Positions 4,710 through 12,341 of a stretch of 64,000 nucleotides of DNA are shown here, piece by piece. The position numbers and the translations under genes are program-made. Each line of letters begins with the position of its first letter. The stretch's first letter is position 1. The stretch comes from Flavobacteriales bacterium (lineage in GTDB: Bacteria > Bacteroidota > Bacteroidia > Flavobacteriales_F > PHOS-HE28). The stretch spans positions 1 through 64,000 of the forward strand of contig JAEUSY010000042.1 in NCBI GenBank assembly GCA_016788295.1, in the 5' to 3' direction. Under the pieces are notes generated by a model that was given only the letters and a program-made list of their open reading frames with translations, did no database searches and had not been told where the DNA came from.

Positions 4710-5615
4710 TCATTCCACCACCAGCCGGTAGCCCACGCCGCGGATGTTCACGATGCGCACGTTGGCATCGGCCTCCAGCTTCTTGCGCAGTTTGGAAACG
4801 AACACGTCCAGTGTGCGGCCCACGTAGTCGCCCTCATCGCCCCACACGTTGGTCAGGATGGTCTCGCGGCCTACTGTGTCGTTAAGGGATGCGGCAAGCA
4901 GCTGGAGCAGATCGGCCTCCTTGCTGGTGAGGCGCACCCGCTCGTTCTTGTGGGTGAGCTCCATGTTGCGCGGGTTGAACAGGAATTCGCCGATGCGGAT
5001 GAGGTTGGGGTCTTCTGTAGTGGCCGTTAGGCGCTGTTTCTTCCGCAGCACCAGGGCAACACCCACAAGCACGAGCAAACCGGGGATCAGGAGCAGCCAG
5101 CTGAGGCCCTGCTCTTTGCCGGAGCCGGTCTGCTCGGCTTCATCCGGGCGCTGGGTTGCGGCGAAGGCTGCGGCGTCGCGCTCCAGGATGGTGAACCAAA
5201 GCTCGTAGCAGGCCACCGGCTGTTCCCGCCCGATGCACGGCATCATGGCTTGCTCAGGATGCAGCGCTGCCTGCCAACTGTGTACCACCAGGTCCGAGTC
5301 GCAGGAGACGAATTCCACCATGTAGCGGGTCGCGATCCCTGTGCTGCGCACCACGCTGTCCACCGTCTCGGTCATCAGGCCCGGATCGAAGCCGAAGTCC
5401 TGCGCGAAGCGGATCCGGTAGCGATCGCCAGTGCGCTCCACGGGGAGCACAAGAGAGGAGGTATCGCCTGCGGCCAGCAGCACCTGATGACCGATAAGGC
5501 GCATGGCCACTTGCTCCTGCCGCTCTTGGTTGATGGACCGGTCTCCGAGCCCCGCAGAGCTCGGTCCGGAGGTAAGCAAGGCGACGAAAAGCAGGGGCGC
5601 GGACCATCGGTACAT
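4710..5615 (-). CDS. Membrane-anchored winged-helix (OmpR/ToxR-type) transcriptional regulator
   Basis: A 301-residue protein with an N-terminal signal peptide or anchor (residues 1-22), an extracytoplasmic domain (about 23-165) and one transmembrane helix (171-190, SWLLLIPGLLVLVGVALVL) followed by RKK. A C-terminal OmpR/PhoB winged helix (205-300: IRIGEFLFNPRNMEL, LTSKEADLLQLLA, VGRTLDVFVSKLRKKLEAD, RIVNIRGVGYRLV) completes it. This is ToxR-like logic with the order reversed: the sensor faces the periplasm and the DNA-binding domain is cytoplasmic at the C-terminus, with no receiver domain. Three periplasmic cysteines (105, 127, 136) could form a redox-sensitive disulfide. The gene is divergent from the TonB-C protein at 5745, with a tandem repeat operator between them. 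A -7 box ends 4 nt before the start codon. Confidence 0.85.
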   Translation of the reverse strand: MYRWSAPLLFVALLTSGPSSAGLGDRSINQERQEQVAMRLIGHQVLLAAGDTSSLVLPVERTGDRYRIRFAQDFGFDPGLMTETVDSVVRSTGIATRYMVEFVSCDSDLVVHSWQAALHPEQAMMPCIGREQPVACYELWFTILERDAAAFAATQRPDEAEQTGSGKEQGLSWLLLIPGLLVLVGVALVLRKKQRLTATTEDPNLIRIGEFLFNPRNMELTHKNERVRLTSKEADLLQLLAASLNDTVGRETILTNVWGDEGDYVGRTLDVFVSKLRKKLEADANVRIVNIRGVGYRLVVE

Positions 5616-5619
5616 GCGG

Positions 5620-5627
5620 CAAAGCTA
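5620..5627 (-). promoter_or_regulatory. -7 box TAGCTTTG of the membrane-anchored regulator gene
   Basis: On the minus strand this reads TAGCTTTG, a perfect match to TAnnTTTG, ending 4 nt before the ATG. The same octamer stands before katG (9983). Use of this box would give a leaderless transcript. Confidence 0.55.
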
Positions 5628-5655
5628 CCGTGCCAACCCCTTGCATTTGAATGAA

Positions 5656-5688
5656 TTACACTGCGTTTGCACTAATTTACACGGCGTT
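5656..5688. promoter_or_regulatory. Tandem 12-bp direct repeats, candidate operator of the divergent regulator
   Basis: TTACACTGCGTT (5656-5667) and TTACACGGCGTT (5677-5688) match at 11 of 12 positions and are offset by exactly 21 bp, two helical turns. OmpR/PhoB-type winged helices bind as head-to-tail dimers to direct repeats on one DNA face, although their usual half-site offset is about 10-11 bp. The downstream repeat ends 25 bp before a CACCTTTG box facing the TonB-C gene and overlaps a TTG at 5687-5689, where a -33 element would lie. This layout suits activation of the 5745 gene and perhaps control of the regulator itself. Confidence 0.6.
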
Positions 5689-5713
5689 GAACAAGGCCGG
5701 AGAACACGCGCTG

Positions 5714-5721
5714 CACCTTTG
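5714..5721 (+). promoter_or_regulatory. Candidate -7 box CACCTTTG for the TonB-C domain gene
   Basis: CACCTTTG differs from TAnnTTTG only at the first base. It lies 23 nt before the ATG at 5745 and 24 nt after a TTG that overlaps the second direct repeat. A weakened first base is consistent with a promoter that needs an activator. Confidence 0.4.
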
Positions 5722-5744
5722 GCGAAACCCTCAACCCCAAGGTC

Positions 5745-6782
5745 ATGAAAGCAACGACAATGTTCGGCGGCGCGACTCTCCTGGTAGTGGCAGCTGGTGT
5801 GTCCATCGGTTCCCTCAGGGACGGTCACCAAGGATGTGGAGCACAAGCGAAGGCGGCCGTTCCGGTCTCCGATCTTTTCCAGCTGCCGGGAGCTGCCTTC
5901 GTGCAGGAACCGTGGCTGGATCCTGTGGCGTTCTTCTCGGATGGGGCATACGTGGTCGAGGCCCTTCCTTCGCGGACCGAAGCCGGAAGCACGGATGCGG
6001 CGTTCGTTGGAGGAGGTGACAGCCTGGTGAGCTACCTCAAAGGGGCGCTCTTGCCGCACATCGTTCCCGGCATGGGCTGGTTGAAGCCTCCCGTGGTGGA
6101 GTTCACTGTTGGTGCAAAGGGTGAAGCGTCCAACGTCGAATTGGTCGCAACCTCGGGCCATGCGGGGCTGGATGCGCGGATGGTGCAAGTGGTCACCGAT
6201 ATGCCGCGCTGGACCCCGGCGAAGGCTGCGAACGGTGGCGCGATGGAGCAGGCCTTTGTTTTCCGGGTCGTTCAAGGCGGGTGCACGTCCTCATCAACCA
6301 ATGCACCGATCCAGGATACGCGTACCGGGCAGCTTCCGGTTACGGATACCACGTTGGCCAAAGAACATCCCTACGATCTGATGTTCGAGGTCGAGAGGTC
6401 CGGTGACAACACCTTCACATTGATCACAACTGTAAAGCTGTATGGCGGCAGCTATTATGCATCGCCCAATTGCACACGCAACTTCAAGGGTAAATTCCAC
6501 ATAGAGCTCGAGGCTCAGGAGCGCATCGTTTTGGGGGATAGGGTCAAGGAGATCCCCTTGAAAATGGATAGAGGCTACTATCATCCTTTGGTCCACGGCC
6601 CACAGGACTGGGTAAGCGTGGACACGCGGAACGAGCAGGTGTTGACGGTGAACGGTCAGAAGGATCTGGAAGTGAAAGGGATGTGCCGGTTCACCATCGA
6701 ACCGCGTTGTACGCTGGAGGAGATCCCGTTCGTGATTAGGCAGCGTGGCGGGCGGTTGACGATCGAGCGGGTGGGGTGTTGA
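5745..6782 (+). CDS. TonB C-terminal-domain protein, probable target of the divergent membrane-anchored regulator
   Basis: A 345-residue exported protein with an N-terminal hydrophobic segment (GGATLLVVAAGVSIGSL). Residues about 105-172 form a TonB C-terminal-type domain: PPVVEFTVGAKGEASNVELV, GLDARMVQVV, PRWTPAKAANGG, AFVFRVV, the strand-helix-strand pattern seen in energy-transducer-like proteins. No proline-rich periplasm-spanning segment and no ExbB/ExbD neighbours are present, so it is unlikely to be a classical TonB. Residues 200-345 are a second, unassigned domain rich in strands. Five cysteines are spread over the mature part. Its divergent position and the operator between suggest co-regulation with the ToxR-like protein. 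Confidence 0.7.
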   Translation: MKATTMFGGATLLVVAAGVSIGSLRDGHQGCGAQAKAAVPVSDLFQLPGAAFVQEPWLDPVAFFSDGAYVVEALPSRTEAGSTDAAFVGGGDSLVSYLKGALLPHIVPGMGWLKPPVVEFTVGAKGEASNVELVATSGHAGLDARMVQVVTDMPRWTPAKAANGGAMEQAFVFRVVQGGCTSSSTNAPIQDTRTGQLPVTDTTLAKEHPYDLMFEVERSGDNTFTLITTVKLYGGSYYASPNCTRNFKGKFHIELEAQERIVLGDRVKEIPLKMDRGYYHPLVHGPQDWVSVDTRNEQVLTVNGQKDLEVKGMCRFTIEPRCTLEEIPFVIRQRGGRLTIERVGC

Positions 6783-6893: not shown

Positions 6894-7235
6894 ATGATCG
6901 ACTACAATGACCGCCGCTTCGTCCCTGTGAGCAACAGTGCCAATGGAGAGGTTTCCCCGGAAGTGATCTTCCATTACGAGCAGACGGGCAACATCGTGAC
7001 GTGCAGCTATTCCGGAGGACGGATCGTCAGTGGCCAGTTGATCGCCTTGGTGGATGAGGAAGGCCGTCTGGATATGCGCTACCACCAGGTGAACGAGCGC
7101 GGCGAGCTGATGACGGGCGTGTGCCGGTCAACGCCTGAGCTGTTGCCCGATGGGCGCATCCGCCTGCACGAGGAGTGGCGTTGGACCAGTGGCGATGGAT
7201 CGAGCGGGGGCTCGGTGTTGGAGGAGATGCGCTAG
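6894..7235 (+). CDS. Intact member of a 113-aa protein family (parent-type copy of two decayed duplicates)
   Basis: A 113-residue cytosolic protein, MIDYNDRRFVPVSNSANGEV... to ...GGSVLEEMR, with no signal peptide or membrane helix. It looks like a single all-beta unit: TGNIVTCSYSGGRIVSGQLIALVDEEGRLDMRYHQVN, then LMTGVCRSTPELLPDGRIRLHEEWRWTSGD. I recall Bacteroidota and Bacillota relatives with the same blocks (SGG.I..G.L..LVD, MRYHQVN, GELMTG.C.S.PE.L..G.IRL.E.W.W) annotated as n-acetylglutamate synthase, a label with no visible motif support. The function is unknown. Two degraded copies lie at 13 and 1362. A CATCTTCA box ends 7 nt before the ATG. Confidence 0.8.
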   Translation: MIDYNDRRFVPVSNSANGEVSPEVIFHYEQTGNIVTCSYSGGRIVSGQLIALVDEEGRLDMRYHQVNERGELMTGVCRSTPELLPDGRIRLHEEWRWTSGDGSSGGSVLEEMR

Positions 7236-7708: not shown

Positions 7709-8818
7709 TTACTCTCGCACCACCCGCACAATATGCGTTCGTGACCCACTGTGCAGTTTGAGCAGATAGACGCCTGAAGCGATCGTTACGCCCACTTCCA
7801 ATGGTGCGCCTGTCGTCAAGGTCAGCGATGAAATGACGATGCGACCAGTGTGGTCCAACAGTTCAGCTTGGTAGAGGCCTTCAGATAGACCGCTCACATG
7901 GATGCGGTCCACGAAGGGGATCGGGAACGCGGTAATTATCCGGCTTGTCCCGTTCGGGTCCGTGATCGAGCTCGGTAGGCAGTCCGGGGTAATGGTGGTG
8001 ATGCCGCTCGCGAGCTCGTTGCGTTGTGCAACGCTGTTCGTCAGGCAGGCGTGCACACGTGCGCGTTGGCCGGCGGTGAACATGTTGGAGCAGTAAGGCG
8101 ACGACATGAAGTTGTGTTCGTTGGCCACTACGGCGTCGCAGCTGTTGGTAATGCCATTGCAGAGCACGGTAGCCACGCAAGGTGGCGTATCGGTAACCTC
8201 ATCGTCCGCACAAGGTCCACTACCGATCGGGTCCTCATAGACCATCTTCAAGTTCAGGAATCGACCTACGGCTTGTGTGAGCGTTCGTTTTGTGCCCTGG
8301 CTTGCTGTTCCTATTGATCCGACATAGCTGTGGAAGATCATTATGCCGTCGGTACATGGTTCCTGGTCCACTTGGTTCGGGAGTTGGCTGATGTACGATA
8401 TGCCGGGAGCGGCAAGTGAACGAACGGTCCAGATGTTCAGATAGCGGTTGCGGGGCCATGCGTTCACGTAGCTCGAAGGAGCACCCGCGTCGATGGTCAG
8501 CGGTGTTTCAATGCGGTCGATACCGTTCGTAGGCGATCCATCGGGCGCCACTGATGCCAACACGAATGCGATATCCATATCTGCCGCAATGGCATCGAAC
8601 GGAGGCTCCACGGTCCATGTAGGTGCGTCGAAATTCGTGTTCAGGATCTCCATGGCATCGGCGATCTGCTCATCGCTGATGTTCTCCGTTCCGTTCTGGT
8701 GCAACACATGGAAGACGACCGGGATGGTGTATTGAGCGGCACCGGGTTGGGCTTGTGCAGGACAACACAAGAGCAGCGCGAGCAGAGCGTGGAATGCAAG
8801 AGTCCGATGAATGTTCAT
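7709..8818 (-). CDS. Catalytically dead pappalysin-like (M43) protein with T9SS sorting domain
   Basis: A 369-residue secreted protein with a signal peptide (1-23). Residues 30-265 follow the M43/cytophagalysin layout: TIPVVFHVLHQNGTENISDEQI, NIWTVRSLA.PGISYISQLP, and the Met-turn region NFMSSPYCSNMFTAGQRARV. At the zinc site, where active relatives have TLTHEVGHxLNLxHxW, this protein has TLTQAVGRFLNLKMVY: His182, Glu183 and His186 are replaced by Gln, Ala and Arg, and the third ligand is gone. It should not hydrolyse peptides. Residues 295-369 are a T9SS type A sorting domain (GLYQAELLDHTGRIV, SGVYLLKL, RVVRE). It may be a binding or decoy protein. Confidence 0.85.
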   Translation of the reverse strand: MNIHRTLAFHALLALLLCCPAQAQPGAAQYTIPVVFHVLHQNGTENISDEQIADAMEILNTNFDAPTWTVEPPFDAIAADMDIAFVLASVAPDGSPTNGIDRIETPLTIDAGAPSSYVNAWPRNRYLNIWTVRSLAAPGISYISQLPNQVDQEPCTDGIMIFHSYVGSIGTASQGTKRTLTQAVGRFLNLKMVYEDPIGSGPCADDEVTDTPPCVATVLCNGITNSCDAVVANEHNFMSSPYCSNMFTAGQRARVHACLTNSVAQRNELASGITTITPDCLPSSITDPNGTSRIITAFPIPFVDRIHVSGLSEGLYQAELLDHTGRIVISSLTLTTGAPLEVGVTIASGVYLLKLHSGSRTHIVRVVRE

Positions 8819-9007: not shown

Positions 9008-9925
9008 TTACACCGCCACCACTTCCTTCTCAACGTTCCTGAATCGTTTCGGAACCGCTGCCCTGATCGCATCGGCCAGCGCTTCCAAGGCCTTGCGCCG
9101 CACAAAGGGTTTGCGCACCACCATCACCACTTCGCGCACGGGTTCCGGAGATGCGAAACGACGAACGTTCTTGTCGTCGGGGCTCACGGACAGCTCGGGG
9201 ACCAACGTTACGCCGCTGCCACTGTTCACCATCCGTTTCAGCGTTTCGATGCTGCCTGAGCTGTAGTTGATGTTGGTGTGTCCGCCAGCGCTGGGTTGTT
9301 GGCAAACACTGAGCACCTGGTCGCGCAGACAATGGCCCTCGCTCAGGACCCACAGATGTGCTTTCCGAAGGTCCTTGGCCGCGATGCGTTTCTGTTTGAG
9401 CAAGGAGTGGTCCGAAGGCAGGTAGGCGAGGAAAGGTTCATGGAAAAGGGTGATGCATTCGAGGTCGTCGCTCTCCACTGGTCCTGCGAGGATGCCGATG
9501 TCGAGCTGGCCACTACGCAAGGCTTTCAGGATGCGGCTGGTCCTGCGCTCATCAATATCGAGACGGGCCTCGGGATGCTCATCGGCAAAACGCGCAAGAA
9601 AGAGCGGCAGCAAATAGGGCGCGAGCGTGGGGATGATGCCGATGCGGTAAGTGCCGGATGTGCCCGTGCGCAGCTCCTTCACAAGGTCCTTGAACTGACC
9701 GGCCTCGCGCAAAACCACCCGCGCCTGATCGATCAGGCTCGCGCCTTCCGCCGTGGCCCTTGCGGGTTGCACGCCACGTTGGAAGATGGTGACGGCCAAC
9801 TCTTCCTCCAGCTTGCGCACCATCATGGTGAGCGTGGGCTGCGTGACATGGCATTGGCGTGCCGCCCTGCTGAACTGGCCGGTGTCGGCCACGGCAACGA
9901 TGTACTGGAGCTGTTGAAGAGTCAT
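9008..9925 (-). CDS. oxyR: Peroxide-sensing LysR-type regulator OxyR
   Basis: A 305-residue LysR-family protein. Residues 1-60 form the winged helix-turn-helix (MTLQQLQYIVAVADTGQFSRAARQCHVTQPTLTMMVRKLEEEL) and 90-295 the effector domain. The peroxide-sensing pair is present as Cys199 and Cys208 in EGHCLRDQVLSVC, the same numbering as in E. coli OxyR, where they form a disulfide on oxidation. The gene is divergent from katG with 169 bp between the start codons, a classic OxyR arrangement. Its own -7 box lies inside an inverted repeat in that spacer, which suits autorepression together with activation of katG. Confidence 0.93.
   Translation of the reverse strand: MTLQQLQYIVAVADTGQFSRAARQCHVTQPTLTMMVRKLEEELAVTIFQRGVQPARATAEGASLIDQARVVLREAGQFKDLVKELRTGTSGTYRIGIIPTLAPYLLPLFLARFADEHPEARLDIDERRTSRILKALRSGQLDIGILAGPVESDDLECITLFHEPFLAYLPSDHSLLKQKRIAAKDLRKAHLWVLSEGHCLRDQVLSVCQQPSAGGHTNINYSSGSIETLKRMVNSGSGVTLVPELSVSPDDKNVRRFASPEPVREVVMVVRKPFVRRKALEALADAIRAAVPKRFRNVEKEVVAV

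Positions 9926-10001: not shown

Positions 10002-12341
<2,340 letters not shown>

Follow-up and report, generated by a model that had tools for sequence, protein, structure and literature searches.

A conserved regulator, operator and exported-target unit points to a probable membrane-bound one-component envelope regulon in Bacteroidota

Two divergent genes, with start codons 129 bp apart, lie near the beginning of the window (here, the whole 64,000-nucleotide stretch of Flavobacteriales DNA under analysis). One encodes a membrane-anchored regulator, the other an exported protein (Table 1). From N to C terminus, the regulator consists of a signal peptide, a periplasmic domain with three cysteines, a single membrane helix and an OmpR-type winged helix. 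The initial annotation had proposed just such a membrane-anchored protein with a periplasmic sensor, one helix and a cytoplasmic DNA-binding domain, and both a Pfam match to Trans_reg_C (E = 5e-21, residues 225-298) and an AlphaFold2 model agree with it: the model, with a mean pLDDT of 85.5 and a periplasmic domain (residues ~24-145) mostly above 90, presents one helix at residues 172-197 besides the N-terminal signal sequence, followed by the C-terminal winged helix. Foldseek matches this winged helix to the DNA-binding domains of PhoB, CadC and ToxR, the PhoB-DNA complex 1gxp among them, and winged helices were the sole matches when solved structures were searched with a profile of the regulator. 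All 75 homologues checked carry Trans_reg_C, none carries a receiver domain family, and no Pfam family covers their periplasmic part. Those paralogues of the regulator that were inspected in its own genome proved to be ordinary response regulators, with similarity confined to the winged helix.

Table 1. Features of the regulator-target pair and its intergenic region, in window coordinates
Feature	Position	Strand	Evidence
Regulator, 301 aa	4710..5615	-	ORF; Trans_reg_C; AlphaFold2 model
OmpR/PhoB-type winged-helix DNA-binding domain, residues 206-301	4713..5000	-	Trans_reg_C; Foldseek
Membrane helix, ~residues 172-194	5034..5102	-	AlphaFold2 helix 172-197; hydrophobic stretch in translation
Periplasmic sensor domain, ~residues 24-168	5112..5546	-	Cysteine conservation in homologues
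Cys136 codon	5208-5210	-	
Cys127 codon	5235-5237	-	
Cys105 codon	5301-5303	-	
Regulator -7 box TAGCTTTG, 4 nt before ATG; predicted +1 = 5615	5620..5627	-	
Operator repeat 1, TTACAC	5656..5661	+	
Operator repeat 2, TTGCAC (TTTAC-type in most relatives)	5667..5672	+	
Operator repeat 3, TTACAC	5677..5682	+	
Target -7 box CACCTTTG, 33 bp past last TTTAC; predicted start ~5726, 19-nt leader	5714..5721	+	
Target, exported two-domain protein, 345 aa	5745..6782	+	ORF; TonB_C match; AlphaFold2
TonB_C-type domain of target, residues 85-180, ends in Cys180	5997..6284	+	Pfam; homologues
C-terminal beta-sandwich domain of target, residues 206-345	6360..6779	+	AlphaFold2; domain HMM

The divergent protein had first been read as a TonB-C protein with no ExbB/ExbD alongside. 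Its TonB_C match falls just under the Pfam cut-off (E = 5e-5; 24.1 bits against 24.6), and the assignment is supported by the homologue set, in which 26 of 37 proteins match at E<=0.01. Neither ExbB nor ExbD adjoins the pair; four ExbD genes lie elsewhere in the genome. The C-terminal domain has no significant fold match in the PDB, and a DsbD-like identity, suggested by weak Foldseek matches only (E about 0.04), was rejected. A domain HMM recovers this domain at L108 (1.4e-36), L249 (1.4e-35) and L251 (1.1e-103), and it is found elsewhere as a separate exported target. At L251 (G249:C67) the very strong match apparently comprises two copies, and L249 (G298:C1), which has an unlinked operator, is a lipoprotein of a single domain. 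The cysteines of the window target number six (31, 180, 243, 314, 322 and 345), rather than the five first counted; five target cysteines as a signature were dropped, since Cys180 alone is constant across the genus.

Several neighbouring genes deserve mention. Similar plus-strand ORFs flank the pair at 62-352 and 6894-7235; they share IVTCSYSGGRIVSGQLIALVD and are apparently a duplicated gene, the first copy seeming shortened. The overlapping small minus-strand ORFs 369-734 and 731-964 resemble by eye a toxin-antitoxin-type pair (PIN-like, DUF433-like), and a Peptidase_M43 protein (7709-8818, minus; E = 1.1e-11) bears a weak type IX secretion tail. Some 3 kb away from the unit, a LysR-type regulator (9008-9925, minus; OxyR-like by eye) is divergent from a catalase-peroxidase-like gene (10089-12341, plus), which, judged from the translations, form an ordinary oxidative-stress pair.

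Between the two start codons, the initial annotation had picked out a tandem operator consisting of TTACACTGCGTT and TTACACGGCGTT, 21 bp apart. The offset is real, and the 3.78-Mb genome has no second instance of this two-copy arrangement, but a middle copy, TTGCAC at 5667, had been overlooked: the operator is a triple direct repeat starting at 5656, 5667 and 5677, with a spacing of 11 then 10 bp. As the alignment showed three copies at one-turn spacing, the 21-bp two-copy element was discarded as the functional unit. The middle and last repeats are the best conserved among seven orthologues in the genus. Upstream of the best-scoring 80 homologues across Bacteroidota, taken from one genome per species, TTTAC pairs occur 75 times at 10 bp, 43 times at 11 bp and 46 times at 21 bp, against 0.078 expected per spacing after shuffling. 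At these homologous loci the repeats are oriented towards the divergent gene, and the information content of the intergenic region is concentrated at the repeats and at both -7 boxes. A phylum-wide draw recovered 25 regulators, from the 24 of 395 genomes that hold a full-length homologue at E<=1e-50. Most of these 25 are more distant, and in about half of the set no TTTAC array stands where it would be expected. The operator therefore marks only a subfamily, and the wider regulator family may use other operators. Among the distant regulators L209-L217, most have no TTTAC array upstream and several face short lipoprotein-like genes.

The -7 boxes keep a fixed distance from the repeats. A TAnnTTTG box was located on the target side at 62 loci, and at 60 of these it follows the last repeat by 32-33 bp; 17 further loci, mostly those with a neighbour outside the recognised partner families, yielded none. 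At 64 loci the regulator's own TAGnTTTG-type box and the repeat pair are 37-38 bp apart, and the gap from box to ATG is 4 nt in 67 of 77 homologous loci and 5 nt in another six. In F. johnsoniae the -7 box spans -12 to -5 (PMC6847099), so that with a 4-nt gap the regulator ATG falls on +1, and the regulator mRNA is predicted to be leaderless at most loci. Such a message would be unusual for the phylum, in which leaderless mRNAs amount to a few per cent (5.5% in F. psychrophilum, PMC9723704; in B. thetaiotaomicron 3.7% of leaders are shorter than 10 nt, PMC7366714). Judging by the intergenic information content, neither promoter has a clear -33 element. Because this element is generally weak in Bacteroidota, its absence only hints at activator dependence.

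The exported partner varies across Bacteroidota. Of 83 regulators, many of them from metagenome-assembled genomes, 43 have a TonB_C partner (two of them truncated and classed by eye), 10 a 'GGWYCPDN' lipoprotein, six a Reg_prop propeller lipoprotein, five an S41-type protein (four with TPR), one a YceI protein and one a homologue of the window target's C-terminal domain alone, leaving 17 with other or no neighbouring genes. On the regulator tree, where many inner branches are weak, partner types cluster (19 changes against 37.1 when shuffled). Being one of several interchangeable exported partners, the TonB_C protein is not the defining piece of the unit. We regard a role of the target as TonB energy transducer for one particular outer-membrane receptor as very unlikely. 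Its TonB_C-type domain and the ExbD genes elsewhere in the genome would suit this role, but the domain of the window protein scores under the Pfam cut-off, a long proline-rich linker is not apparent, some orthologues are lipoprotein-like (L071, L072), and propeller, protease-like and beta-sandwich lipoproteins can take the family's place. The window's own target fuses two of the partner families in one chain, which suggests that these families work in one process.

The operator also occurs away from regulator genes. A blind search for an exact 16-mer in 295 genomes of the class returned 17 sites: 10 adjoining a regulator, three at unlinked partner genes and four without such context, one of them inside a gene. 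The combined operator and -7 pattern, TTTACN5TTTACN32-33TAnnTTTR, gave 23 matches in 31 genomes picked for carrying the regulator, against three for the reversed pattern; 10 adjoin a regulator, six are unlinked and precede genes of the partner families, and seven do neither and look like chance, given the yield of the reversed pattern. The six unlinked sites stand before a Reg_prop gene (L238), a TonB_C gene (L239), a TPR-S41 gene (L253), two GGWYCPDN genes (L247, L256) and the beta-sandwich-domain gene L249. The 16-mer and pattern searches are not independent, as three of the six sites were already known from the former. Operator, distance and target family thus travel together without the regulator gene, and from the operator standing before unlinked targets we infer a small regulon. 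These sites bear on a reading in which the operator serves autoregulation only, with the divergent genes as bystanders. Indeed, the neighbour at 17 of the 83 loci falls outside the partner families, mostly with no target-side -7 box. Yet the unlinked sites precede the same families, partner type clusters on the regulator tree, and the -7 box is found at 32-33 bp where a partner is present, all of which makes bystanders extremely improbable.

Within the genus, the regulator is present in eight of 45 genomes, which makes the pair dispensable. Separation of the two genes in relatives and lack of repeat conservation had been named beforehand as refuting observations; what we find is a divergent TonB_C gene beside the regulator in all eight genomes, and conserved repeats. 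Three of the eight targets are short, ending after the TonB_C domain at Cys180. In a ninth genome, G003, the target survives, divided between two contig ends (C142:1-330 and C77:1-434; L076 and L075), with a different gene in the regulator's place. There the operator has lost its first repeat and the remaining ones have degenerated, whereas the -7 box CACCTTTG has stayed intact; such decay, in this single case, fits what loss of the binding protein would predict.

We consider it quite probable that the locus holds a local copy of a Bacteroidota one-component envelope regulator that activates itself together with a small exported regulon. The periplasmic three-cysteine domain would sense an envelope condition, possibly a thiol-disulfide state, and the signal would cross the single membrane helix to the cytoplasmic C-terminal winged helix. 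This domain would bind the three direct TTTACA-type repeats head-to-tail, one helical turn apart, at about -45 to -70 of the target promoter and some 50 bp from the regulator's own start. The bound regulator would most likely activate two -7-box promoters devoid of a recognisable -33 element, its own, giving the leaderless mRNA, and that of the target; through the same operator at the same distance, it would also control unlinked genes of the same exported families. Repression, with the regulator shutting both promoters until the signal releases it, appears unlikely. A divergent shared operator is typical of autorepressors too, and only the geometry is fixed here; but the repeats end ~45 bp upstream of the predicted target start and not over the -7 box, which suits an activator of the OmpR/PhoB type, both promoters combine a -7 box with no recognisable -33, and the distance from repeat to box is constant within 1 bp, unlinked targets included.

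As first noted, the regulator has three cysteines (105, 127 and 136), all periplasmic. All 83 homologues have Cys105 and Cys127, and 81 have Cys136, which makes redox or disulfide sensing plausible. A more specific version of the activation model, in which activity depends on the oxidation state of these residues, perhaps by way of a mixed disulfide with the C-terminal cysteine of the target, is possible albeit doubtful. The regulator cysteines are near-invariant and odd in number, and 32 of 37 TonB_C partners end in a cysteine that in 16 is the only one after residue 25. Invariant cysteines of a periplasmic domain can, however, be purely structural, and those of the regulator are equally conserved with any partner type; Reg_prop and GGWYCPDN partners generally have no C-terminal cysteine, and the window target retains a single invariant one in the genus. 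Among known regulators, CadC bears an intramolecular disulfide (PMC3096576), and the proteolysis of ToxR is affected by the redox state of its cysteines (PMC6242745). Extended to a phylum-wide thiol relay, in which exported targets would be both output and co-sensor and would feed back on the regulator by a mixed disulfide joining its odd periplasmic cysteine to the C-terminal one of the target, the idea becomes quite unlikely; if true, the exported families defined by the operator would form one undescribed envelope-homeostasis pathway.

With ToxR and CadC the regulator shares its predicted topology as a single-pass inner-membrane protein, an OmpR-type winged helix and a cysteine-bearing periplasmic sensor, and with ToxR a direct-repeat operator near one-turn spacing (TNAAA-N5-TNAAA in ToxR; PMC8517210). 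Their DNA-binding domain is nevertheless N-terminal and cytoplasmic, whereas here it comes last (206-301), so the term 'ToxR-like' used initially suits the logic of the system but not its topology; also distinctive are the repeat itself, the lack of a recognised periplasmic domain family and the recurrent set of exported partner families. The C-terminal winged-helix fold is common to response regulators of the PhoB/OmpR type, which bind head-to-tail to direct repeats of ~11 bp; unlike them, the present protein is membrane anchored and has neither receiver domain nor kinase. In hybrid two-component systems of Bacteroidota, Reg_prop propellers are periplasmic sensor modules; here they are separate lipoprotein partners, and there is no kinase, receiver or AraC domain. 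ToxR-ToxS and VtrA-VtrC likewise combine a membrane regulator with an adjacent envelope partner (PMC9214523), but the partner here is usually divergent, belongs to several unrelated families and may be an output rather than a co-sensor.

In the literature searched, which most subscription journals fall outside, no description of the regulator-operator-target unit was found. The unit is conserved and, it appears, undescribed; it is a variant within the known membrane-bound one-component regulators, and not a separate kind of system. The initial claim of a regulatory unit is supported for the conserved divergent arrangement but falls short in size, the operator standing also at unlinked genes. 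With a readable operator for a predicted one-component envelope regulon of Bacteroidota, the members of that regulon may be listed from sequence in any genome. The predicted regulon would also link functionally uncharacterised exported families: TonB_C proteins without ExbBD, GGWYCPDN lipoproteins, TPR-S41 lipoproteins and the beta-sandwich domain.
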